Below are positions 6,096 through 20,423 of a stretch of DNA of 64,000 nucleotides, in pieces. A program made the translations under genes and the position numbers. Source of the stretch: Akkermansiaceae bacterium (GTDB lineage Bacteria; Verrucomicrobiota; Verrucomicrobiia; Verrucomicrobiales; Akkermansiaceae); contig JAFLSS010000005.1 in assembly GCA_022510805.1 (NCBI GenBank), positions 1 to 64,000 on the forward strand, read 5' to 3'. Every line of letters begins with the position of its first letter. Position 1 is the stretch's first letter. The notes beneath the pieces were generated by a model. It made no database searches and was not told the DNA's origin. It was given only the letters and a program-made list of their open reading frames with translations.

Positions 6096-6269
6096 CCCGG
6101 CACATGCTGCGGCGCGCGAGCCCTCTCCCGACCGCGCGGGAGGCTCTATTGAAGTCAAAACAATGCCAAATCGGGCAGAAAATTGAGCAGAAAGCGCTGA
6201 AATCAGAAAAAAAGATTGCAATGCCCGAAAAATGGGGTATTCTGAGAATGCTTCGCGACATTGTTTGAT

Positions 6270-7616
6270 ATGGATGAAAGCTCACAAGACGCACCGCTGA
6301 CATTTGATCTCTCTGAATTGGCAGGTTTTCAATTTGGCCCGAACTGGGCGAGAGAGCGCACTAAGGCTTCGGACTACTCCGCTGTGCCGGAGCGCCCCGC
6401 CTCCCCCCGCCGGAGAGAGCGCGGTGATGCCCCCCGCCGCGACCGCGAACCCCGGCAAGACCGCCAGGACCGCCCGCGCCGCGGCGCCCCCCGCCAGCAG
6501 CAGCGCCGCGAGCCCGTGCGCCGCGAGCTCCCCGCCCCGGCAGAGGGGCTGCGTGTTGAGCTGCGCCCGAGCAACAACATCCTCACCGTCTTCTCCACCG
6601 AGATCCAACGCCAGAAGCGCGCGCACTCCCTGCTGGATCTGGCGCGTGTCGTCATGAAGCAAAAAGACCGCTACGACATCGTCTTCATGAAACAAGAGGG
6701 CGGGCCCTCCCTCATCCACTCCCTCAAGGAAGATGGCGCATGCTGGCTGAGTGAGGCAGAGGCCATGGCCTACCTGCACAAGGCTCCCTGGTTCAGTGAG
6801 CTCTACAGCATCGAACAGGTGGAAGCCGAGGCCCCCAAAGGCACCTTCACCGGCATTGCCGAGTGTTCGCTGGGCGGAGAACTCATCGGCCCGGTGAACT
6901 GGCACGGCTACCAGCCGGCTGTGGCAGTCCTTTACAAATCAAAATATTCCCACATGGACATGGGCGCATTCCGCGCCGCTATCCGCGTGAACAAGTCTGA
7001 AGAAGCTGTGCAGGCCTGGCTGCAGCAAGCCTCTGCCCGCACGGTGTGGCGCCCCACCCGCGAAGGAGCACAGGACACAGAGCTCCCCTCCCTGCGCGCC
7101 GTGGAAGAGGACTTCCGCGAGCACCACTTTGCAGAGGTGTACGAGACAGTCGATAAGGTGTTTGTGAACGGAAGCACCCCCTTTGACCGCCTCTCGTCCG
7201 GCTTGGCGGCACATGTCTCCATCCTCTCCGGGCGCCACCGCCACACCCCGCAGATCCTCATCCCCAACCTCTGCCACGGTTTGGCGCGCCACCGCATGCC
7301 CATCTTCCGCTGGCACACGCGCCACTACACCGGGCCGAGCCGCATCCGCACCGTGCCGGAGGATCTCGTGCTGGCAGACCGCATGGTTGCCATCCTGGAA
7401 TGGAGCAAGCAGAACTCCGGCAAGAAGGTGGAGGCCATGTATGCTGAGCTGAGCGGCGTGCCTGCCGGCGCAGATGACGAGGGCAAGAAAGCCGCCGCTG
7501 AGGCCTATGATCCCTACACGGCGGATATGATCTGGCTCATCGACCAAGGCTTTATCCTGGTGACCAATGACAACTCCATCTGGTACCCCAAGGGTGAAGC
7601 AGCGCCGAAAGCCTGA
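6270..7616 (+). CDS. Hypothetical protein with Arg-rich low-complexity N-terminal segment and globular C-terminus
   Basis: Open frame; MDESSQDAPLTFDLSELAGFQFGPNWARERTKASDYS... then RRRERGDAPRRDREPRQDRQDRPRRGAPRQQQRREPVRRE, then a ~350-aa non-repetitive domain. In-frame ATG at 6261 is also possible. Confidence 0.8.
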   Translation: MDESSQDAPLTFDLSELAGFQFGPNWARERTKASDYSAVPERPASPRRRERGDAPRRDREPRQDRQDRPRRGAPRQQQRREPVRRELPAPAEGLRVELRPSNNILTVFSTEIQRQKRAHSLLDLARVVMKQKDRYDIVFMKQEGGPSLIHSLKEDGACWLSEAEAMAYLHKAPWFSELYSIEQVEAEAPKGTFTGIAECSLGGELIGPVNWHGYQPAVAVLYKSKYSHMDMGAFRAAIRVNKSEEAVQAWLQQASARTVWRPTREGAQDTELPSLRAVEEDFREHHFAEVYETVDKVFVNGSTPFDRLSSGLAAHVSILSGRHRHTPQILIPNLCHGLARHRMPIFRWHTRHYTGPSRIRTVPEDLVLADRMVAILEWSKQNSGKKVEAMYAELSGVPAGADDEGKKAAAEAYDPYTADMIWLIDQGFILVTNDNSIWYPKGEAAPKA

Positions 7617-8143: not shown

Positions 8144-9064
8144 CTAAAACTCCTTGTTGGCAAAGATCCACGATGCCGCCAGCAAATGCAGCAGCATGTA
8201 TGCCAAGGCAATGAGCGCCAGCCCACCCAGCAGCGGCCCGCTCAGCTCTGCCCCGGCTGAGGCGGCATCTGTGATACTAAAGAGGCTGAAATCCGGCAGC
8301 AGGATGGAAACCACACGCTCTGTCCACAGCAGCGTCACCCCCTCGCCACCCCCCTGAGCCGCCACCATCGAGTGGAACAACTGCCCCTGAAACATGCCGA
8401 TAAAGTACGCGCCGAGCGCAAAGAGCATGCTCACAATCGTGCCGCTCGTCATGCAGGACAAGAAGAGCGTAAAAGTCGTCAACACCCCGAAGCCCAGGAA
8501 CATGGCCACAATACTGCGCTGCAAATTCCAAGAATTACCCGCCTCAGCCACCTGCTGCAAATAGGGCTGCATATCAGCCGCACTCCACCCGCGGTCAGTC
8601 AGAACCAGCCGCACCTCCTCCTCGATAACCGCCTCACGCAGGTGCAGCAGCAGCGCCAGCAGACCATCCATGACCAGCAGCATGAGCCCCATCAGCAGCA
8701 GCACCCCCAGCGCCTTGCCCGCCAGATACGCAAAGCGCGGCACCGGCTTGCACAGGATCGTGTAGAGAATGCGGTCCTCCGTGTCCTTGGGGATGAGCAG
8801 CGCCGCCGCCGCCACACAGAACAGCATGCAGAAGAGGCGCATGCAGCCCAGGGCTATGTCCTTCATGAGCTGCAGCTGCCCCACCCCTTGGAACTCCACC
8901 CCGAGATTTTGCTGATACGGCACAAACTGCAGCGCCAAAAAGCCGATGCCCACCACCGCCAGCGCCGCAAAAAGGCGCATGCGCATCAACTGAATAAAGG
9001 TGACACCCGCCACCGCCGCGATGCGCGCCGGCATGTGCCAGAGGAAGCTGAAAAAAGCCGGCAT
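8144..9064 (-). CDS. ABC-2-type transporter permease-like membrane protein
   Basis: 306 aa with several hydrophobic helices; IPKDTEDRILYTILCKPVPRFAYLAGKALGVLLLMGLMLL resembles ABC-2 permease proteins. Confidence 0.75.
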   Translation of the reverse strand: MPAFFSFLWHMPARIAAVAGVTFIQLMRMRLFAALAVVGIGFLALQFVPYQQNLGVEFQGVGQLQLMKDIALGCMRLFCMLFCVAAAALLIPKDTEDRILYTILCKPVPRFAYLAGKALGVLLLMGLMLLVMDGLLALLLHLREAVIEEEVRLVLTDRGWSAADMQPYLQQVAEAGNSWNLQRSIVAMFLGFGVLTTFTLFLSCMTSGTIVSMLFALGAYFIGMFQGQLFHSMVAAQGGGEGVTLLWTERVVSILLPDFSLFSITDAASAGAELSGPLLGGLALIALAYMLLHLLAASWIFANKEF

Positions 9065-9445
9065 TTACTTACGCGCAGCGTGTTCACCCTCATCAATAAG
9101 GCGCCAGAATGAGCGGGACTCGCCCAAGCGCTGATCCTCTGAGCCACTGCCCATGCCGGAGCGGAAGAGGAAATCTTTCAGCGAGTCCGCATGCAGCACG
9201 CGCTGCACCACCACCTTGCCGTCCTCCATGGTGAAGTAGATGCGGTAATCCTTGGAGCGGTAGCGGTATATCTTGCGGCCGGCGCGCTCTACCACGCCGA
9301 ACTGGGAGTCCTCGCCGTTGAGGCTATCCTCATCCACGCGAAAATGGCTCACCAGCTCCAGCTGATCCAGAGTGGGGATAGCCGACAACTCGGCTGCACT
9401 GATTTCATTGAAAACGATCTGATGCACGTGTGCATTGTATGCCAA
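9065..9445 (-). CDS. Small conserved-looking protein with RelE/ParE-like C-terminal fold
   Basis: GRKIYRYRSKDYRIYFTMEDGKVVVQRVLHADSLKDFLFR resembles the core strands of RelE-superfamily proteins. Immediately upstream of the permease gene. Confidence 0.6.
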   Translation of the reverse strand: MAYNAHVHQIVFNEISAAELSAIPTLDQLELVSHFRVDEDSLNGEDSQFGVVERAGRKIYRYRSKDYRIYFTMEDGKVVVQRVLHADSLKDFLFRSGMGSGSEDQRLGESRSFWRLIDEGEHAARK

Positions 9446-9517
9446 GCTCTCCGGGCTTGCAAGCTAAATTCTCCATAGCCGGTAAAGAAGTTAGCCTTTT
9501 GTCCTGTCACTATCTCA

Positions 9518-9547
9518 TTGACAGCATGGGCTCAGCTGTGCTATAGA
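9518..9547 (+). promoter_or_regulatory. Candidate sigma70-type promoter for thioredoxin-like gene
   Basis: TTGACA (9518-9523), 18-bp spacer, TATAGA (9542-9547). Confidence 0.55.
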
Positions 9548-9555
9548 TGGGGACT

Positions 9556-10116
9556 ATGACCCTTTCCCCTATCCTGTCTACACTCAGTCTGCTAGCCTTG
9601 GCGGCATGGGCTCCGGCCTCCGCTCTCCGCGCGGCAGAATCCGCCCCTGCAGCCGCACCCGCCGCGCAGCAAGCCCCCGGCAAAGTCGCGCAAGCGCTCG
9701 CGCAGCTCCCCACATTCAACGGCCGCCCGGCCGCTGATGCTCAGTATTACATCTACCTGCAATCCGCCAGCTGGTGCGGGCCCTGCTGCGCGGAGATGCC
9801 CGAGATTGCGCGCCTGTATCCCGAGATGCGGAAAGCCAAGGTGGAGTTGATCCTCATCGGCTGCGATGCCTCGCCCGAAGCCGACCTGGCGTTCCTCCAA
9901 AAGTACCACGCGGCCTTCCCCGGCGTGCATTACCAGGAAGAAGCCCTCAGCACCCTGCCCGGCTACACCCCGGCACAGGGTATCCCGGATGCCACCTTTG
10001 TGGACCGCGAGGGCAAGGTCATCCTCCGCTCGCACGGCTCGGCCATCAAATACTGGCGCCGCATCATTGACAAATACGAGGCGGAGCTCACCCAGCCCAC
10101 CCCCGAAGCGCCATAA
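9556..10116 (+). CDS. Secreted thioredoxin-like (TlpA-type) protein
   Basis: Signal-peptide-like N-terminus ([29 protein letters not shown]) and WCGPC active-site motif ([22 protein letters not shown]). ATG at 9547 is an alternative start. Confidence 0.87.
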
Positions 10117-10151
10117 GCCGCCGCCGCGCACACCTCCGGCGAGAAAAAGCC

Positions 10152-10180
10152 TTGACTCCGCCCGGCGAGTGTGGCACAAT
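10152..10180 (+). promoter_or_regulatory. Sigma70-type promoter of SRP RNA gene
   Basis: TTGACT (10152-10157), 17-bp spacer, CACAAT (10175-10180). A start 7 nt downstream is 10187, the predicted 5' end of the RNA. Confidence 0.75.
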
Positions 10181-10186
10181 GGCTGT

Positions 10187-10289
10187 GCCGCCGGGGCCCC
10201 CGGAGGTGCGGCTGGAAAACCCCGCCAGGACCGAGAGGTAGCAACGGTATTCAGACCACACTTGTCGGGTCAGCCTCGGCGGTTTTTTT
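10187..10289 (+). ncRNA. ffs: Bacterial small signal recognition particle RNA (4.5S-type)
   Basis: Helix 8 signature CCAGGACCGAGAGGTAGCAACGG (compare TCAGGTCCGGAAGGAAGCAGC) with a GNRA (GAGA) tetraloop; 3' TGTCGGGTCAGCC; GCCGCC at the 5' end pairs with GGCGG at the 3' end; followed by a T7 tract. Confidence 0.9.
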
Positions 10290-10294
10290 GTCAG

Positions 10295-10735
10295 ATGGAT
10301 ATACTTGTACTCGCCGCCGCTAAGCCCTCACTCCCCTACGCGAGGTCGGGGGTGGAGCTCTATTGCGAGCGGCTCCGGCCGCTGGGCAAGGTGGAGCTGC
10401 GCTATGTGCGCGATGGCGGGCGCGATGAGGTATCGGCCCGGCTGCTCAAGGCCAGCGAGGGCTGCCTGCGCGTGGCGCTCGATGAACGCGGGCAGAACCT
10501 GACCACGCGCGAGCTGGAGGCCAAGTGGCGCCAGTGGCAGCTGCGGGCGGTCAAGCGCGTGGCTTTCCTCATCGGCGCGGCAGAGGGGCACAATGAGGCC
10601 CTGCGCCGGGAGGCCGAGCTGGTGCTCTGCCTGGGCCGGCACACCATGCAGCATGAGCTGGCTCTCGTGGTGCTGCTGGAGCAGATCTACCGCATCCACA
10701 CTCTACTGGCAGGCTCTCCCTACCACCGGGATTAA
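10295..10735 (+). CDS. rlmH: 23S rRNA (pseudouridine1915-N3)-methyltransferase RlmH
   Basis: [38 protein letters not shown]...[17 protein letters not shown]...[57 protein letters not shown]. The track start at 9866 is too long. Confidence 0.93.
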
Positions 10736-11403
10736 GCCAAGCCCAGGCAAGCCTCCAACTGCGCGGGAGAGCTCACCAGCGGCGCGCCATACTGCGCCAG
10801 CTCCTCGGTGCGCGCGTACCCCCAATCCACCAGCGCCAGGCGGCACCCGGCGGCCTGCGCTGTCCGCGCATCATACGTGGAATCCCCCACCAGCAGCACC
10901 TCCCGGCACGGCACTCCCCACACCTGCGCCAGGTGCAGCAGCGCATCCGGCGCGGGCTTGCGGGGGAATTGCCCTGTGTAGCCCATGATAAAGTCAAACG
11001 CCACCTCGGGGAACACCGCCTGCACCAGCGGCAGGGTGACCTCATGCGGCTTATTTGAGAGCACCGCCATGTGTCCGCCCGCGGCAGCCAGCCGCGCCAG
11101 CAGCTCGGGGATCCCCGGGAAGGGAGTCGTGCCCGCCCCCTGCCAGCAAGTCGGGTACTCGCGGCTGAAGTGCTCATGCAGCTCATCCATGAGAGACAGC
11201 GGCGCGTGCTGCACCCCCTCATACCCCAGCGCACGCGCGCAGAGGTGCTTGCTGCCGAGGCCGATCATGCCGCGCACCTCATGTGCGGGGGGCACGCGGC
11301 GGCCCATGCGCTCCAGCGCGCGGCACACAGCCAGGGCAATGCCGGGGAGGGAGTCCACCAGCGTGCCATCCAGATCAAAGACAAAATGGCGGCCAGTCGG
11401 CAT
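10732..11403 (-). CDS. gph: HAD-family phosphoglycolate phosphatase-like hydrolase
   Basis: [63 protein letters not shown] motifs. Confidence 0.88.
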
Positions 11404-12185
11404 CAGTGAGTATAGCCGCGCTCGGATTCACGAAGAAAGCGGAGGAGCTGCTCCACCCGCGCATTCTTCCCGTACTTCTCATCCTGGAGGATCGTCTGAA
11501 CCGCCTCCTGAACATTGCACCCCTTTTGCAGGAACAGCTTGCGGTAGGCAAACTTGATGGCGCGGACATCTTCATCACTAAAGCCGCGGCGCTGCATGCC
11601 GATGCTGTTGACCGCGCGCACGGCGGCGGGAGAGCCCTCCACAATCATGAACGGCGGCACATCCTGCGACACGCGCGCGCAGCCGCCCACCATGGAGTGC
11701 TCACCCACGCGCACAAACTGGTGCAGCGCGGCAAAACCGCTCACGATGGCCCAGTCCCCGATGTGGCAATGCCCCGCCACCCCCGCATAGCCGGAGAGGA
11801 TGCAGTGATTGCCCACCACACACTCGTGCCCGCAGTGCGAGTTGATGAGGAAATGATTGTGCGAGCCGATGATCGTCTTCGTCTCGGGCGAGGTCGAGCG
11901 GTTGATATTGCAATTCTCACGGAACACATTATAATCACCGACTTCGAGGAACGTAGGCTCGCCCCTGTACTTGAGATCCTGCGATTTCAGGCCAATCACA
12001 GCAAAGGGGAAAAACTCATTCCCCTCGCCGAATGTTGAGGGACCCTCCAGCACCACATGGCTGTGCAGCACACAGCCCTTGCCCAATTTCACATGCGGCC
12101 CTACCACACAATAAGGCCCGATCTTCACATCCTCCGCCAGTTCAGCTGTGGAGTCAATAATAGCTGTTGGGTGTATTTCCGCCAT
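11403..12185 (-). CDS. lpxA: Acyl-ACP--UDP-N-acetylglucosamine O-acyltransferase
   Basis: Left-handed beta-helix hexapeptide protein: MAEIHPTAIIDSTAELAEDVKIGPYCVVGPHVKLG...GLKSQDLKYRGEPTFLEVGDYNVFRENCNINRST...HNHFLINSHCGHECVVGNHCILSGYAGVAGHC. Confidence 0.95.
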   Translation of the reverse strand: MAEIHPTAIIDSTAELAEDVKIGPYCVVGPHVKLGKGCVLHSHVVLEGPSTFGEGNEFFPFAVIGLKSQDLKYRGEPTFLEVGDYNVFRENCNINRSTSPETKTIIGSHNHFLINSHCGHECVVGNHCILSGYAGVAGHCHIGDWAIVSGFAALHQFVRVGEHSMVGGCARVSQDVPPFMIVEGSPAAVRAVNSIGMQRRGFSDEDVRAIKFAYRKLFLQKGCNVQEAVQTILQDEKYGKNARVEQLLRFLRESERGYTH

Positions 12186-12325
12186 ATGTGCATTCTAGCC
12201 TGTTCGGCGCGGGGCATCAAGAAAAAAGTTGGGCAAAGCTGAGCATGCGTACCGGGGGCGGAATCGGCATGCAGAGGTCAGAGACACTCTTGAGCACACG
12301 CGTTGTTTGTGTTAAAGGCATCGGC

Positions 12326-14809
12326 ATGCAAGATAATGCACAAATACTCGGATTTACCGCCGGCGAGCTCAGCCCCTGGCTCGCCACCCGCCACGATCTT
12401 CAGGCCTACCAGCGCGGCGCCTCCCGACTGGAGAACTTCCTGGTGCAGCCCTACGGCGGCTTGAGGCGCCGGCGCGGCACGCGCTACGTGGCAGATGCCG
12501 GGGTGCAGGGCACCGTGCGCCTGGTGCCCTTCAGCTTCTCGGAGTCAGATGTGCTGATGCTGGAGTTCTACCCCTCCGGCGTGCGGGTGTATCGCGATGG
12601 CAAGCTGCTCTACAAGGATGGCAAGCCCTATGAGATCAGCACCCCTTGGGACACGGACGAGATGGTGAAAGAACTGCGCTGGATGCAGGTCAATGATATT
12701 GTCTATGTGCTCTCCCCCACGTTTCAGACAGTCATGCTCATGCGCCACGGCGACACCGATTGGGAAGTCGCCGGCCTGGATCCCAACCCCTTCCCGCGCG
12801 AAACCTACCTCAACCAAGAGGTCAGCCTCAAGGTCAGCATGGACTCCAAGGGCACCTACGCCAGCTTGGAGCTGGAAAAAGGCTCCTTTTTCGACCCGAA
12901 TATGGCGCTGGATGAATACCTCATTGCCGATGCGCCCATCTCCTCCAGCACGCTTTTCCTCAATGAGAGCTACTCCATCTCCAGCTCTGCCAAGCCGGAT
13001 CTCTCCAAACTGGCCGTCGCGGTGAACACCGTCTTCCACGAGACCAACAGCGCCACCGGCATGTATGAGTACTACACCTGCATCCGCGCCTACCTGCCGG
13101 CCAATTACAACGGCAGCAACCACGCCAAGGACTACCCGCACCACTTCATGCCCGGCGTCATGCGCCTCAACAGCAACAACCAACCCTATGAGGTGTATGG
13201 TGATTGGGAGCTGCGCACCACAGGTGAGTGGAATGGTATCTGGGAGCTCTGGCGCTCATACAACACGCTCAATGACACCGTTTTCTTCCGCGAGTGGGAT
13301 TGGACCTGCATCAAATCCTTCGGGCAAGATGCCTACTCCACGCGCCAGAATTACGCGTTCTCCGGCTCAGAGGACATCCCCTGCCGCATGGTGATTGTCT
13401 GCCGCGCGTTCAAGGGCACCAGCGTGGGCGCCATCATGTATTTCCGCATGATGGGGCATGACCGCGAGCAGCGCTACCTCATCACCAAAGTCTCCTCCCC
13501 CACCCAAGCCACCGGCTACCCCACGATCCGCTACTGCGACTCCCAGCCCACCTTCACCACCAAAAAATGGAGTTTCGGCGCTTTCGGCTGGCGCAATGGC
13601 TACCCCCGCTTCGCCGGCATGCACCAGGGGCGGCTCTGGCTGGGCGGCACCGCCGGCAGGCCCACCACTCTCTACGCCAGCAGTGTGGGGGATTACAATG
13701 ACTTCCGGGTGCGCGCGGCAGATGACGCCGCTCTGCACCTCACCCTCGCCACCGATGATCAAAGCCGCATCTGCTGGATCTGCCCCATGCGCAACCTGCT
13801 TGTGGGCACCTCCGAAAGTGAGTGGACACTGGCCGCGCCCGATGGCGGGAGTCTCACGGCCACCAACGCCGCCTTCAGCAAGCAATCTGCCGTGGGCAGC
13901 GAGAACAAGGTGGCCTATGGTGTGGAGAACACGGTGTTCTATGTGCAGCGCGGCGGCAAGCGCATGCGCGAGATTTCCTACAAGCTGGAGGCCGATGGCT
14001 ACACCTCCACCGATGCGAGCATCCTCGCAGAGCACCTCTTTACCGCCGGAGTGAAAGAGTGGGTGGTGCAGCGCGGGAATTGTGTGCACCTGTGGACGCT
14101 GATGAATGACGGCAGTCTCGCGGTGCTCACCACCAACCCGGAGCAGCAGGTGGCCGCCTGGCAGCGCGCCTCATTCCCCGGCCGCCGCGTGCTGGGCATG
14201 GCGGCGCTCGCCTCTGTGGGCAGCAGCGAGGATGAAATATGGTTTATCATGCAAAACGAGCTCACGCAGCATATCTCCCTAGAGCGCCTCACCGAGGAGA
14301 ATGACTATGTGGACGGCTGTGTGGAGCTCACCCCCGATAGCGGAGTGGAGGTGAGCGCCGGGCTTCACTTGGCCGGGCTGCAGGCCCTGGTGTACCCCAA
14401 GGGCGAGCCGGAGAAGGCGCAGCGCGTGCAGATCAATGCCCGGGGGTGCCTCGACATCCCGGGCTTCACCCCCGGCGTCACCTACTGTGTGGGCGCTGAA
14501 TTCGAGTCGGAGATGGAGACGATGCCCTTTGAGCACGAGACTAACTTCAACTCAGTGCAGCAGCTCGGGCGGGTCAAGCTGCGCCTGCGCAACAGCACCC
14601 CCGGCTTTGCCTACAAAGGGCAGCACGCCGCCCGCTGGGAGACGTATGACCCCGCGCGCGACCACCTCACCTCGCCCTACACCGGCGCTATCCGCATCTC
14701 GCAGATTCCCTCACCCGGCGTGGGGCAAGGCTTCTGCCTGCGGGCCGACGGCGCGCAAGACTTCGCCCTCGTGTCGCTCACCATCGAGGTCGACTTCCAC
14801 GGCAAATAA
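12326..14809 (+). CDS. Phage-tail-type structural protein, solitary
   Basis: MQDNAQILGFTAGELSPWLATRHDLQAYQRGASRLENFLVQPYGGLRRRRGTRYVADAG...LVPFSFSESDVLMLEFYPSGVRVYRDGKLLY...RFAGMHQGRLWLGGTAGRPTTLYASSVGDYNDF. The FTAGELSP...N(F)..P.GG.RRR.GTR(Y/F)V signature occurs in tail proteins of tailed phages. In-frame upstream starts exist (12269, 12257, 12167). Confidence 0.8.
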   Translation: MQDNAQILGFTAGELSPWLATRHDLQAYQRGASRLENFLVQPYGGLRRRRGTRYVADAGVQGTVRLVPFSFSESDVLMLEFYPSGVRVYRDGKLLYKDGKPYEISTPWDTDEMVKELRWMQVNDIVYVLSPTFQTVMLMRHGDTDWEVAGLDPNPFPRETYLNQEVSLKVSMDSKGTYASLELEKGSFFDPNMALDEYLIADAPISSSTLFLNESYSISSSAKPDLSKLAVAVNTVFHETNSATGMYEYYTCIRAYLPANYNGSNHAKDYPHHFMPGVMRLNSNNQPYEVYGDWELRTTGEWNGIWELWRSYNTLNDTVFFREWDWTCIKSFGQDAYSTRQNYAFSGSEDIPCRMVIVCRAFKGTSVGAIMYFRMMGHDREQRYLITKVSSPTQATGYPTIRYCDSQPTFTTKKWSFGAFGWRNGYPRFAGMHQGRLWLGGTAGRPTTLYASSVGDYNDFRVRAADDAALHLTLATDDQSRICWICPMRNLLVGTSESEWTLAAPDGGSLTATNAAFSKQSAVGSENKVAYGVENTVFYVQRGGKRMREISYKLEADGYTSTDASILAEHLFTAGVKEWVVQRGNCVHLWTLMNDGSLAVLTTNPEQQVAAWQRASFPGRRVLGMAALASVGSSEDEIWFIMQNELTQHISLERLTEENDYVDGCVELTPDSGVEVSAGLHLAGLQALVYPKGEPEKAQRVQINARGCLDIPGFTPGVTYCVGAEFESEMETMPFEHETNFNSVQQLGRVKLRLRNSTPGFAYKGQHAARWETYDPARDHLTSPYTGAIRISQIPSPGVGQGFCLRADGAQDFALVSLTIEVDFHGK

Positions 14810-14812
14810 CCC

Positions 14813-16186
14813 TCACGCCAGGCGGCAGGGCACCCCGGGCTCCGGCAGCAGCACAGGCACGCCGGGCAGCTGCTCCTGCAGCAAAGCACGCATCTCATGC
14901 AAGGCGTCCTCGTCCCCATGCACCAGCACAATCTGCCTGGGGGCGAGCCGCTTGGCATAATCCAGCAGCGCCGCGCGCGAGGCATGGCCGGAGAAATCAA
15001 AGCACTCCACCCGGCAAGCGCAAGGGTATGCCTGCCCGCGCTCCGGGTTCTCCCCCAGGCGCACCAAGTCCCCGCGCTGTGCGGCGCGGATGCGCCCGGC
15101 CGGTGAATCCGGGTCACTATAGCCCACAATAAACAGCCCGTCCTTCTCCCGCGGCAGCACCTGCGCGGCCAAGCGGTTGGAGAGTGTGTGCGGGCTCATC
15201 ATGCCGCTGGATACCAAGTAGATATTGCCGGGCGACACCGGGAAATACGCATCTGCCCCGCGGGGGATGGGGGCGGTGACCACCTGCTCGCGCAGGCGGA
15301 CGCCGGGCAGGAGGCGCGGCGTGCTGTCCGCCAGTTTGTCATAGACTGCTGTCACCTTGGCGCCCAGGCCGCCATAGAAGATCGGCACATCGGGGATCAA
15401 GCCCTCATCGCGGAAGCGGTCCAGCTCATAGAGCAGCTCCTGACTCTTGCCCAAGGCAAAGACGGGGATGAGCACAGCCCCGCCCCCTTCCAGCACCTCG
15501 CGGATAGCCTGCGCCAGGCGCCGCAGCTCCTTGCCGCGCGTGTAGTCCGCCGCGCGCTCTGTGGCGCCGTGGGTACACTCCATGATAAGCGTGTCCACCC
15601 CCTCTTCCGGGAATTGAGCGCCGGGGATCAGCGTCTGGTTCTCAAACTGCACATCGCCGGTATAAAAGATCGTCTCGCCGCGCTCCGTCTCCAGCAGCAC
15701 CCCGCATGAGCCCAAGATATGCCCGGCATCGCAAAGCATCGCCAGCACATCCTCCCGGAACCCCACGCGAAACGCCTGCCCATATGGCCGCGTTTTCCAC
15801 TGCATCACCGCGCGCTCCAGCTCGCCGTGCGTGAAGAACGGGTACTCCACGATGCCATCCGCCATGCGCCGCGCCGTCATCACATTCACCGAGTTATGCA
15901 GCATCACCTGCCCCACCTCAGCCGTGCCGCGCGTCATGATCACCTCCGCCCGCGGGAACTCCTCCTGGTAGAGCGGCAGCGCGCCGATGTGGTCCAGATG
16001 CGCATGCGTCACAAACACCGCATCCACCCCGCCCTGGTCTATGAGATCCAGGCGGGGTTTGGAAGCATTGCCCTCTTTTTTGGGGTGTACCCCTGCATCG
16101 AGCACGAGGCGGGTGCCTCCTATCTCGAGCAGATAGCTATTGGCGCCGATCTCGGCCGCCCCTGCGAGGTTGGTGAACGTAATCAT
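14813..16186 (-). CDS. MBL-fold beta-CASP (CPSF/RNase J-related) metallo-hydrolase
   Basis: FVTHAHLDHIGALP, DAGHILGSCGVLLE, FYTGDVQFENQTL, VLIPVFALGKSQELLYEL, FSGHASRAALLDYAKRLAPRQIVLVHGDEDA. Confidence 0.92.
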   Translation of the reverse strand: MITFTNLAGAAEIGANSYLLEIGGTRLVLDAGVHPKKEGNASKPRLDLIDQGGVDAVFVTHAHLDHIGALPLYQEEFPRAEVIMTRGTAEVGQVMLHNSVNVMTARRMADGIVEYPFFTHGELERAVMQWKTRPYGQAFRVGFREDVLAMLCDAGHILGSCGVLLETERGETIFYTGDVQFENQTLIPGAQFPEEGVDTLIMECTHGATERAADYTRGKELRRLAQAIREVLEGGGAVLIPVFALGKSQELLYELDRFRDEGLIPDVPIFYGGLGAKVTAVYDKLADSTPRLLPGVRLREQVVTAPIPRGADAYFPVSPGNIYLVSSGMMSPHTLSNRLAAQVLPREKDGLFIVGYSDPDSPAGRIRAAQRGDLVRLGENPERGQAYPCACRVECFDFSGHASRAALLDYAKRLAPRQIVLVHGDEDALHEMRALLQEQLPGVPVLLPEPGVPCRLA

Positions 16187-16195
16187 GCGGCTATA

Positions 16196-17779
16196 TCAGC
16201 GGATGCGCTTGAGCAGCCAGTGCAGCAAGCCGGAGATGGGGATGCGCTCTTGCTCCATCGAGTCGCGGTGGCGGATGGTGACGGTATCCTTGAGTGAGGG
16301 GTCCTCACCCTCGCCCAGCGTCTCAAAATCCACCGTGATGCAGAACGGCGTGCCCACTTCATCTTGGCGGCGGTAGCGGCGGCCCACGGCTCCGGCTTCA
16401 TCGTAGAACACATTCATGAACGGCCGCAGCTGCTCCTCAATCTCGTGCGCGATGCGCACCTGCTGCTCATTCTTCTTGAGCAGGGGGAACACCGCTGCCT
16501 TGATGGGGGCCATGCGCGGGTGGAAGTGCATCACCGTGCGGATATCGCTCTTGCCGTCCTGGCCGAGCTCCTCCTCATCAAACGCCTCGCAGATCACCGC
16601 CAGCACCGTGCGGTCACACCCGGCGGAGGGCTCCACAACGTGGGGGATAAAGCGCTCTCGCGTCGCTTCATCGAAATACTCCATGGGCTTGCCGGAGCCC
16701 TCTTGGTGGCGCGTCAGGTCATATGTCGTGCGGTAGGCTATGCCCTGCAGCTCCTGCACGCCAAAGGGGAACTCATACTCCAGATCATAGGTCTTCTTCG
16801 AGTAGAACGCGCGCTCGCCATCCGGCACATCGAGGATGTGGATCTTGTCACGCGGGATGCCGATATTCTCATAGAACGTGAGGCAGCGCTCCAGCCACTC
16901 GTCGGTGAGGCGCATGCCGTCTTCCTCTCGGCAGAAATACTCCACCTCCATCTGCTCAAACTCGCGCGAGCGGAAGGTGAAGTTGCGCGGGTTGATCTCA
17001 TTGCGGAAGGATTTGCCGATCTGCGCGATGCCGAATGGTATCTTCATGCGCGAGGAGTCGAGGATATTCTTGTACTGGCAGAAGATGCTCTGAGCCGTCT
17101 CCGGGCGCAGCCAGCCGATGCTGGAGGGATCATTCTCATCTGAGGCCGCGCCGATCGTGGTGCGGAACATGAGGTTGAACGAGCGCGCCTCCGTCACCAG
17201 CGAGCCATTGGCCGGGTTGTAGCGCACGGAGTCCACCACGTCTTGCGTGCTCTCCTCGAGCAGTTCCAGCTCTGCCGGCTGCACTCCCTTGCCGGAAAGC
17301 TGGGCATAGTATTGCAGCGCGCCTTTGCGGGCTGTCTTGGCATCTTTCTCACCGCTCGTAGGCACCAGCATGGAGAACTCCTTCGCCGTGCTCCACGTGC
17401 CATCCTTTTTGGCAGCTCCCTTCCACCAGTAGGCCACTCCGCTCTGCGCGGGGATCTGGTCGGCGCGCAGGCGCTCCTTGGAGAGCAGGCAATCACACAG
17501 CGGATCCGAGAAACCGCCCACGTGCCCGGATGCCACCAGCACCGAGTTGTGCGTGAGGATCGAGCCGTCCATTCCCACGATATCCGGCCGCTCCTGCACA
17601 TTCACGCGCCACCAGTATTCCTTGAGGTTGCGCTTCAGCTCCACACCCAAGGGGCCGTAATCCCAGCAGCCATTGAGGCCGCCGTATATCTCTGCAGCCT
17701 GAAAGATAAAACCTCTGCGCTTGCAAAGGCTCACTATTTTTTCCATTCGAGCGGGGTCGGTCTGTGTGCGGTCTGCCAT
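16196..17779 (-). CDS. glyS: Glycyl-tRNA synthetase (single-chain class II type)
   Basis: MEKIVSLCKRRGFIFQAAEIYGGLNGCWDYGPLGVELKRNLKEYWW...RPETAQSIFCQYKNILDSSRMKIPFGIAQIGKSFRNEINPRNFTFRSREFEQMEVEYFC. Confidence 0.95.
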   Translation of the reverse strand: MADRTQTDPARMEKIVSLCKRRGFIFQAAEIYGGLNGCWDYGPLGVELKRNLKEYWWRVNVQERPDIVGMDGSILTHNSVLVASGHVGGFSDPLCDCLLSKERLRADQIPAQSGVAYWWKGAAKKDGTWSTAKEFSMLVPTSGEKDAKTARKGALQYYAQLSGKGVQPAELELLEESTQDVVDSVRYNPANGSLVTEARSFNLMFRTTIGAASDENDPSSIGWLRPETAQSIFCQYKNILDSSRMKIPFGIAQIGKSFRNEINPRNFTFRSREFEQMEVEYFCREEDGMRLTDEWLERCLTFYENIGIPRDKIHILDVPDGERAFYSKKTYDLEYEFPFGVQELQGIAYRTTYDLTRHQEGSGKPMEYFDEATRERFIPHVVEPSAGCDRTVLAVICEAFDEEELGQDGKSDIRTVMHFHPRMAPIKAAVFPLLKKNEQQVRIAHEIEEQLRPFMNVFYDEAGAVGRRYRRQDEVGTPFCITVDFETLGEGEDPSLKDTVTIRHRDSMEQERIPISGLLHWLLKRIR

Positions 17780-17912
17780 AACGCCGTCCATTCTAGCGCA
17801 TTTCCTCCCCAATGCAAGCCCAATTCCAGCCATAAGCGCCGCGGCTCCTCATTCTCCGCAAATCCGCGGCCGGCAGGGTCTCTCGGCCCCCCTCCCGGCC
17901 GGCGGGGCTGGG

Positions 17913-20423
17913 TCAGATCCCGGGGTCAAGCATGTCAAACATGTCCAGCTGGCCGATGTCGGCCGCCTGCTCTGCTGCGGGCAAGCCGCCGGACTTGATG
18001 CGGCGGCGGCGCCCGGTGCCGGGCTCACGCAGGGTAGAGCTCATCTCCAGATGCGTAAGGATGCGCTTGGCGCGGTCGATGATGGGGGCGGGCAAGCCCG
18101 CCAGCCGCGCCACTTGAATACCATACGATTTGTCCGCAGGGCCCGGCAGCACCTTGCGCAGGAAGATGATCTCATCCCGCCACTCGCGCACCTCCACATG
18201 CCAGTTGCTGATGGCGGGGTGAGAGTACTGCAGATCCACCATCTCATGATAATGAGTCGCAAAGAGAGTGCGCGCGCCGATGACATCGTGCAGGTGCTCC
18301 GCCACCGCCCAGGCGATGGAGAGGCCATCGAACGTGGCTGTGCCGCGGCCGATTTCATCGAGGATGACGAGGGAGCGCTCCGTCGCGTTGTTGAGGATGA
18401 GAGCCGTCTCGCTCATCTCAACCATGAAGGTGGATTGCCCGCCGGCGATGTCATCACTCGCGCCGACACGGCAGAAAATGCGATCCACCAGGCCGATGTG
18501 GGCCGACTCCGCCGGCACATACGCCCCCATCTGCGCCATGAGGGTGATGAGGGCCACCTGGCGGATGTAGGTGGATTTGCCGGCCATATTGGGGCCGGTG
18601 AGGATGATGAGCCGGTTCGCCTGCTCATCCATCTCGGTGTCATTGGGGACAAAGGCCACACTCTGCTGCACTTGCTCGATGACGGGGTGGCGGCCGTTGA
18701 CAATGCGCAGGGTGCGGGAGTCATCCAGCACCGGGCGGCAGTAATTGTGGCGCTGAGCTGTCTCCGCCAGGCTGAGCAGCACATCCACCTCTGCCAGCGC
18801 CGCAGAGCTCTGCTGAATCGCGTCCAGATAAGCCCCCACAGCCTCACGCAGGCGGCAAAAGATATCATACTCCAACTGGCGTGAGCGCTCATCTGCGCCG
18901 AGGATGGTGCTCTCCATCTGCTTGAGCTCCTCCGTGATAAAGCGCTCGGCATTCGCCAGCGTTTGCTTGCGGCGGTAGTGCTCCGGCACTTTGGCGTAGT
19001 TGGCCTTCGTCACCTCGATATAGTAGCCGAAAACGCTGTTGTAGCGGATTTTGAGCGAGTCGATCCCCGTGGTCTTGCGCTCGCGCGCCTCCATCTCCGC
19101 CAGCCACACCTTGCCCTCGCGGGAAGCGCAGCGCAGCTCATCAAGCCGGGCGTCATACCCATCGCGTATCATGCCGCCCTCCTTGATGGTGGTCGGCGGC
19201 TCATCCACCAGCGCCCCCTCAAGCAGGGCGGTGAGCTCTGAAAAATCTCCCAACCGGCTGAGCAGGGCGGCAAAGTGCTCACTGCGCGGAGCGAGGGAGC
19301 CCAAGTCCTGCACAAGATCCGGCACCCGCGCGAGCGAGGCACCCAGCGCCAGCAGGTCGCGCGCGTTGCCCGCCCCCTGCGAGAGGCGTGAGGTGAGCCG
19401 CTCCGTATCGCGCACGCCCTTGAGAGAATCCCGCAGCTTGCTCATCAGAAACGGCTCTTCCAAAAATGCGGAGATGAGCTCTTGGCGCCGCGTGAGCTCG
19501 GCCAAATCACATATGGGGTGCAGGATCCACTCGCGCAAGAGGCGCGCGCCCATGGGCGAAGAGGTGCCGTTGAGCACGCCGAGCAGGGTGTTGCGCAGGC
19601 CGCTGCGTGACTCCACCAAGTCCAGATTGCGGCGGCTGGCGGCATCAATGAGGACAACTCGTGCCGTGGGGCGCAGGGAAAGGCGGCGCAGGTGGTCCGT
19701 GCTGCGGCGCAGCTGGTGCTTGAGGTAGTGCAAGATGGCCGCCGCCGCCCCGAGCGAAGCGCTGAGCTGCGCACAGCCGAAGCCCTCCAGCGAGTGCACG
19801 CGAAAATGCGACTCCAGCGAGGTCTTGGCCACCCCGGGCAAGAATGTATAGCCATCGTAATACAGCGTCACCGGCAGCGCGGCAAACAGCTCTTTCTGCT
19901 CATCACTCACCAGCAGCTCGCTGGGCTGTATGCGCCCCAGCTCCTCCGCCAGCGCCTCAGGTGTGTCGTAATCCGCCACAGTGAACTCCCCCGTCGTGTG
20001 GTCGGCACACGCCAGCCCCCACGCCTTTTTGTCCCGGTAACACGCCACGATGTAGTTGTGCTCACCGGAGTTGAGCAATGAGAGATCCGCCAGCGTGCCG
20101 GCAGAGACAATGCGCGTGATCTCCCGCTCCACAAGCTTGCCCGGCACGGGCGTGCTCATCTGCTCTGCGATGGCCACCCGCTTGCCCATCTGCACAATCT
20201 GGCCGATGTAGGCCTCTGCCGCATGAAACGGCACGCCGCACATCGGGATGGTCTGCCGCTTGGTCAGCGTAAGCCCCAGCGCCTGCGAACACGCCACGGC
20301 ATCCTCAAAAAACATCTCATAAAAATCCCCGAGGCGAAAGAACAGCCACACGTCCTCCGGCAGTGACTGCTTCATGCGCAGATACTGATCCATCATCGGG
20401 CTGATTGTTGTGCTTTCGGCCAT
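17913..20423 (-). CDS. mutS: DNA mismatch repair protein MutS
   Basis: MMDQYLRMKQSLPEDVWLFFRLGDFYEMFFEDAV...LTGPNMAGKSTYIRQVALITLMAQMGAYVPAESA...FCRVGASDDIAGGQSTFMVEM...LVILDEIGRGTATFDGLSIAWAVAEHL. Confidence 0.97.
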   Translation of the reverse strand: MAESTTISPMMDQYLRMKQSLPEDVWLFFRLGDFYEMFFEDAVACSQALGLTLTKRQTIPMCGVPFHAAEAYIGQIVQMGKRVAIAEQMSTPVPGKLVEREITRIVSAGTLADLSLLNSGEHNYIVACYRDKKAWGLACADHTTGEFTVADYDTPEALAEELGRIQPSELLVSDEQKELFAALPVTLYYDGYTFLPGVAKTSLESHFRVHSLEGFGCAQLSASLGAAAAILHYLKHQLRRSTDHLRRLSLRPTARVVLIDAASRRNLDLVESRSGLRNTLLGVLNGTSSPMGARLLREWILHPICDLAELTRRQELISAFLEEPFLMSKLRDSLKGVRDTERLTSRLSQGAGNARDLLALGASLARVPDLVQDLGSLAPRSEHFAALLSRLGDFSELTALLEGALVDEPPTTIKEGGMIRDGYDARLDELRCASREGKVWLAEMEARERKTTGIDSLKIRYNSVFGYYIEVTKANYAKVPEHYRRKQTLANAERFITEELKQMESTILGADERSRQLEYDIFCRLREAVGAYLDAIQQSSAALAEVDVLLSLAETAQRHNYCRPVLDDSRTLRIVNGRHPVIEQVQQSVAFVPNDTEMDEQANRLIILTGPNMAGKSTYIRQVALITLMAQMGAYVPAESAHIGLVDRIFCRVGASDDIAGGQSTFMVEMSETALILNNATERSLVILDEIGRGTATFDGLSIAWAVAEHLHDVIGARTLFATHYHEMVDLQYSHPAISNWHVEVREWRDEIIFLRKVLPGPADKSYGIQVARLAGLPAPIIDRAKRILTHLEMSSTLREPGTGRRRRIKSGGLPAAEQAADIGQLDMFDMLDPGI

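Follow-up and report, generated by a model that had tools for sequence, protein, structure and literature searches.

Members of the genus Akkermansia, including A. muciniphila, appear to make an undescribed podovirus-type gene transfer agent (GTA) that predates the diversification of the genus and whose motor, capsid, portal and nozzle genes each occupy a locus of their own. We assign this reading a probability of roughly 0.7; it would make the set a bacterial counterpart of wasp polydnaviriforms, whose particle genes are dispersed as well. It is close to certain that the dispersed genes are a domesticated, whole podovirus-type particle set. That this set works as a GTA is probable, with packaging and delivery of host DNA unshown. 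The genome sequences show that Akkermansia retains these genes in intact form, passes them on vertically and loses them as one unit.

The window, i.e., the whole 64,000-nucleotide stretch of DNA that was analyzed, comes from a 112-contig assembly of the genus Akkermansia. It was compared with 77 genomes of the genus, one per species and many of them MAGs; those relatives that carry a name are Akkermansia, many of them MAGs from the guts of ruminants and horses, along with A. muciniphila.

A predicted podovirus tail nozzle gene among housekeeping genes

The ORF at 12326–14809 of the window starts with ATG at 12326, runs uninterrupted to the stop codon at 14807–14809 and encodes 827 aa. The sequence-only reading had also described this frame as intact, and its figure of 828 aa includes the stop codon. 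An alternative in-frame start (TTG 12167) would give 880 aa; the start kept across relatives is ATG 12326. The locus consists of the following features:

11403–12185, minus strand: lpxA, upstream of and divergent to the nozzle gene (Pfam)
12186–12325, plus strand: intergenic leader from lpxA to the nozzle ATG, the presumed promoter region (sequence read)
12326–14809, plus strand: predicted gene for a tail nozzle protein of 827 aa, the one component of the dispersed particle encoded in the window (PHROG_376, PDB 8ck1, AlphaFold, 58/77 genus genomes)
14813–16186, minus strand: beta-CASP/RMMBL metallo-beta-lactamase (MBL), downstream of and convergent to the nozzle gene (Pfam)

Pfam confirmed the two neighbors between which the gene had been placed, and the stop codons of the nozzle and MBL genes are 3 bp apart, as previously noted. 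The lpxA–nozzle–MBL synteny that the same reading put forward for comparison did not hold across relatives: MBL adjoins the nozzle gene in nine other fetched loci, and lpxA directly in none. No clean empty lpxA/MBL site was found in genomes lacking the nozzle gene, where MBL is retained and lpxA does not adjoin it. Elsewhere in the window, a 451-aa frame (6261–7616, plus strand) without a Pfam match at E up to 1 adjoins housekeeping genes.

The PHROG_376 profile ("tail protein") covered residues 10–826 of the protein (E = 3.3e-120), a match that puts the frame well outside what chance would produce and agrees with its earlier assignment to phage tail structural proteins; no Pfam or NCBIfam model matched. 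The closest solved chain was the Carin 1 phage tail nozzle (PDB 8ck1, E = 6e-51). The best matches among phage records were 25–34% identical, and most of them carried the annotation tail tubular protein B, tail protein or hypothetical protein. An AlphaFold model, made from the window protein and 36 Akkermansia relatives, reached a pLDDT of 88.3 and a pTM of 0.81. Its top 22 PDB fold matches were all phage tail or nozzle chains, including 8ck1, 9efk and T7 gp12; viral predicted structures agreed with the assignment. The model and its matches indicate that the fold is complete and not a remnant. Both marks of membership in the podovirus tail nozzle family (PHROG_376), a full-length profile match and a nozzle fold, were present, and by profile and modeled structure the gene is predicted to encode a podovirus-type tail nozzle. 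The protein resembles the nozzles of Carin 1 (8ck1) and T7 (gp12, 7boy) in sequence (for 8ck1) and in predicted fold over nearly its full length. Those nozzles are encoded within a phage tail operon, whereas the Akkermansia gene is solitary in the chromosome. A surface adhesin, one of the functions suggested earlier, received no support, as no signal-peptide-like N-terminus was seen by eye.

Further particle genes at separate chromosomal loci

The window genome carries single-copy phage genes on three further contigs, embedded in ordinary chromosomal DNA. The whole set is distributed as follows:

Contig C58: nozzle
Contig C36: TerL with k1 (1947 aa) and k2 (414 aa), ejection-type proteins
Contig C19: portal, scaffold-like protein, adaptor and small proteins
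Contig C31: major capsid protein (MCP)

The portal matched PF12236 Head-tail_con (E = 4e-124), the MCP matched PF19821 Phage_capsid_2 (E = 4.5e-79) and the adaptor matched phrog_394, while TerL matched Terminase_6C just above the cut-off of that model. Neighbors of the dispersed loci include RecO, DHFR, thymidylate synthase, OMP decarboxylase, Tgt, YajC, an FtsH-type protease and RsfS. Each of the TerL, portal, MCP, adaptor and giant-protein (k1) families had its only match in the window genome on a contig other than that of the nozzle, and no tRNA was found in the 64 kb window; the earlier statement that no portal, capsid, terminase or tRNA lies nearby was correct. The description of the nozzle gene as solitary therefore holds at its locus but not in the genome. 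Likewise, the suggested tail-like particle is indeed distributed, but it is not only tail-like, since capsid, portal, scaffold, adaptor, terminase and ejection-type proteins are dispersed too.

In genome G039, the gene adjoining the nozzle is TerL, and a search with that TerL revealed a second single-copy family with a matching distribution. In other species, TerL lies elsewhere in the genome, away from the nozzle. Searches with the portal, MCP, adaptor and k1 (1600–2000 aa) returned the same distribution as the nozzle and TerL. Two mini-operons recur, k2-k1-TerL and k9-(k22)-portal-k7-scaffold, the latter with adaptor and k8 on the opposite strand. A lysis module, tail fiber, receptor-binding protein or regulator was not found among the dispersed loci. 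A 98–99 aa winged-helix protein encoded between adaptor and k8 (L135:11970–12269, plus strand; L138:7597–7893, minus strand) occurs in the A. muciniphila clade and in G012, and is absent from that position in the window genome; it is a candidate local regulator.

The leader at 12186–12325 is unlike the conserved block that precedes the nozzle gene in the A. muciniphila clade (clade alignment). In ten species of that clade (L079 and relatives), a near-invariant block, ACCTTTCAGGCGTGTTGAC, lies ~60–75 bp upstream of the nozzle ATG and is conserved although the sequence preceding it differs; it may be a promoter or operator. The block was not found upstream of other dispersed genes, and no promoter motif common to the dispersed loci could be demonstrated. 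The best shared 10-mer beat 12 column shuffles, yet it sits in neighboring coding sequence in most species, and shared 14-mers upstream of the dispersed loci were no better than control.

The same scatter of loci was present in the complete, single-contig genomes G001, G005, G006, G010, G013 and G057. Distances between the four loci in complete genomes are mostly ~200 kb or more (in G005: TerL at 0.46, MCP at 1.79, nozzle at 2.21 and portal at 2.50 Mb) and never below 80 kb, the smallest gap found, which separates nozzle and MCP in G057. No ordinary podovirus-sized genome could hold all four loci at such distances, which makes their joint packaging implausible, although head size is unmeasured.

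G039 (L046, ~8842–19000) is the sole fetched locus in which k2, k1, TerL and nozzle are adjacent. This adjacency may have been retained from an ancestor or may have arisen later by secondary joining. rmlD is a neighbor of k2 in the window genome, whereas in the A. muciniphila clade it adjoins the nozzle locus. Taken together, the adjacency in G039 and the placement of rmlD suggest, without proving, an ancestral joined block.

Relation to prophages

An intact-looking prophage in G006 (L154, L035, L155; ~2.439–2.475 Mb) carries relatives of nearly the whole dispersed set in one block, in the order TerS, TerL, small protein, portal, k7, lysis, fiber, scaffold, MCP, adaptor, nozzle, 567-aa protein, 3389-aa protein. 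The 567-aa protein matched k2 (hmmsearch, 1.5e-16) and the 3389-aa ejection-type protein matched k1 (3.4e-33), each against a single sequence. In contrast to the dispersed set, the prophage is contiguous and has a TerS with an HTH half, as well as lysis, fiber and DNA-metabolism genes. This comparison indicates that the dispersed set amounts to a whole podovirus particle plus motor, without lysis, fiber and DNA-metabolism genes. The prophage lies ~10 kb from the domesticated portal locus of G006.

A second group of nozzle proteins, ~25–38% identical, is encoded inside recognizable prophage clusters, and beyond the genus Akkermansia similarity to the nozzle was at prophage level only. A viral contig scan with a strict single-protein query gave no match, which does not exclude close viral relatives in IMG/VR. 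The dispersed genes do not meet the description of a temperate phage (a contiguous genome with integrase, replication and lysis genes), as the hallmark genes stand solitary or in mini-operons within housekeeping DNA. Nor do they fit a tail-only bacteriocin, because MCP, portal, scaffold and TerL belong to the co-inherited set.

Selection and inheritance

The nozzle gene is under purifying selection (dN/dS 0.09–0.19). Among ten dispersed genes in ten species of the A. muciniphila clade, dN/dS was 0.02–0.24 in nearly all pairs, the exceptions being a few values that rest on very small dS; seven neighboring housekeeping genes gave similar values. Purifying selection thus acts on all of the dispersed genes tested. 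Reading frames of the dispersed genes are intact in almost all species. Apparent in-frame TAG codons in the nozzle genes of G004, G008 and G011 were rejected, since the open frame reaches within two codons of the match end and the TAG is the normal stop.

Distances correlated with those of MutS for the nozzle (r = 0.98) and TerL (0.93) in 20 species, and for the portal (0.93) and MCP (0.91) in 9 species. Strongly supported conflict with the MutS tree was absent for the nozzle and TerL; there was one such conflict for MCP. The domesticated copies of TerL (support 0.998) and portal (0.995) are each monophyletic and apart from the prophage copies. The nozzle has diverged more quickly than the rest of the dispersed set, with 35% identity between the two main clades vs 61–64%.

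Fresh prophage debris was rejected on the intact frames, the dN/dS values and the trees that follow the host. The nozzle also has single-copy orthologues in 58/77 genomes, and the earlier inference of domestication stands; what would have refuted it, absence from the lpxA/MBL junction in close relatives combined with full identity to an active prophage, or else relaxed selection with frameshifted orthologues, was not observed. The fragmentation of the window genome into 112 contigs and the many MAGs among its relatives leave room for degraded remnants or misassembly, but the scatter is repeated in six single-contig genomes, frames are intact in almost all species and dN/dS is well below 1. We consider this explanation practically excluded.

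Joint distribution and loss

The 58 nozzle orthologues were full-length or split at contig ends, and were solitary and outside prophages in every fetched locus. The six families (nozzle, TerL, portal, MCP, adaptor and k1) occurred as a set in about 60 of the 77 genomes, a count that takes in G003 (89% complete) and G022 (84% complete), each of which lacks the nozzle only. Among these 60 carriers, 11 of 360 gene-by-genome cells were missing (~97% present), several of them neighbors on one missing contig. The remaining 17 genomes, 13 of which are at least 94% complete, had none of the six families, prophage copies aside; the portals found in three of them (G066, G064 and G075) group with prophage portals.

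The lacking genomes are nested among carriers in the MutS tree: a clade of 14 that neighbors the window species, G076 beside G057, and G002 and G046. This placement implies three or four loss events, in each of which loci that are not linked disappeared together, and we read this as a sign of one joint function. Separate co-option of each gene for an unrelated cell function would be compatible with the unlinked loci, their unknown expression and the faster evolution of the nozzle. However, it does not account for the all-or-none pattern over 60 and 17 species with joint losses, or for mini-operons retained in phage-like order, which again point to one joint function; we regard it as highly improbable.

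TerL and a TerS candidate

The catalytic-type acidic residues of TerL (D353, D410, D509 and E177) are invariant in domesticated and prophage copies. Their retention in both groups makes it likely that active packaging is selected, packaging itself being inferred. This bears on the possibility that solitary capsid, portal, terminase and nozzle copies poison the assembly of related infecting phages. Prophages with genes 30–50% identical do co-occur in some of the carrier genomes; nevertheless, poisoning would need neither the conserved TerL residues nor the keeping and losing of all components together. There was also no credible PADLOC match, which leaves the defense component proposed in the sequence-only reading without support. 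Anti-phage interference is therefore very unlikely.

The small protein k8 (74–85 aa in the copies read) is encoded beside the adaptor in 17/17 portal loci. It aligned with the C-terminal half of the TerS of the G006 prophage, but the match is weak (only 20 columns, hhalign P = 1.2e-4, 55% probability), and HMM-library searches gave no support for k8 as a TerS. The HTH half of the prophage TerS is missing from k8. As a lead only, k8 might be a TerS lacking the DNA-binding domain. This would fit gp1 of RcGTA, for which loss of the N-terminal DNA-binding domain was proposed to abolish sequence specificity (PMC6854486), and FpGTA (PMC12946183).

A gene transfer agent as the proposed explanation

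GTAs are recognized by caudoviricete-derived proteins, particles mostly with random host DNA, a fully endogenized and often multi-locus genome that is too large for the head, vertical inheritance with host co-diversification, and delivery of DNA to other cells (PMC9662315). Three of these six criteria are fulfilled on the genome data. Caudoviricete ancestry is met by the PHROG, Pfam and PDB matches of nozzle, portal, MCP, TerL and adaptor. Endogenization is met by four unlinked loci with housekeeping neighbors in the window genome and in complete genomes, and vertical inheritance by the agreement with MutS described above.

What follows on expression, assembly, packaging, release and delivery is inference. 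All loci would be expressed in a fraction of cells under some condition. Scaffold, capsid, portal and ejection proteins would form a small head, into which TerL, perhaps with a TerS-like protein without a DNA-binding domain, would package chromosomal DNA non-specifically. Adaptor and nozzle would then close the particle, and after lysis the particles would inject their DNA into other Akkermansia cells.

Published observations bear on this proposal in both directions. Among virus-like-particle contigs with transduction patterns from one mouse, those of Verrucomicrobia were over-represented 3.5x, with genus and packaging mode not stated (PMC7667829); this support is indirect and circumstantial. 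A study in which virion DNA of A. muciniphila YL44 was sequenced reported two prophages as well as lateral transduction, and by a term search its text does not mention gene transfer agents, which we count against the GTA reading (PMC8008629). Also counted against it are the lack of a lysis module, fiber, receptor-binding protein or shared regulatory motif, the short TerS match and the fast nozzle.

The sequence data are compatible with any particle that packages host DNA, including one that kills competitors rather than delivering genes, as does PBSX of B. subtilis, a bacteriocin-like particle that packages ~13 kb of host DNA (PMC7667829). However, no immunity or killing module was seen beside the dispersed loci, and ejection-type proteins under purifying selection suit DNA delivery, without excluding killing. 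A PBSX-like killing particle is possible but unlikely, and the GTA remains the preferred reading.

Comparison with known gene transfer agents

The Akkermansia set shares with RcGTA, BaGTA and BhGTA/VSH-1 the fixation of Caudoviricete-derived particle genes at several loci, vertical inheritance and an intact TerL (PMC9662315). RcGTA spans ~20 kb in all over five loci with a core cluster; BhGTA has a 16.3 kb cluster, and its only terL lies outside that cluster, a further likeness (PMC9662315). Both RcGTA and BhGTA thus have a main structural cluster, whereas in Akkermansia, a member of Verrucomicrobiota, head, connector, motor and tail lie at four loci, none of them the main one. Packaging and delivery by the Akkermansia set are unshown, unlike those of known GTAs.

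FpGTA of Faecalibacterium is likewise podovirus-like and from a gut commensal, with TerL, portal, scaffold, MCP and a TerS without an obvious DNA-binding domain (PMC12946183). Its genes form two operons of 10.5 kb and 5.5 kb, of which the second includes lysis and receptor-binding genes, and particles containing ~9 kb of DNA have been demonstrated (PMC12946183). The Akkermansia set differs in having four loci instead of two operons, no lysis or receptor-binding genes found, and no particle data.

In the searchable literature, we found neither a GTA report for Akkermansia nor, in Verrucomicrobiota, a case of head-to-tail scatter in which no core cluster remains. The set would be new as a podovirus-derived, unusually scattered GTA variant.

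Implications for Akkermansia and for the search for GTAs

To our knowledge, few GTAs are known outside Alphaproteobacteria. A podovirus-like example was reported only in 2026 (PMC12946183). The dispersed Akkermansia genes stand one by one among housekeeping genes, so methods that look for prophage clusters are ill suited to detecting them. A search for co-distributed solitary phage genes may reveal more such systems.

Akkermansia is a widely studied mucin-degrading gut bacterium. The dispersed genes were lost jointly in three lineages or more, so that the cost and benefit of a GTA can be tested by comparing species. If the GTA reading is true, Akkermansia would have a self-made route of gene exchange, which could explain host-derived DNA in virus-like particles.
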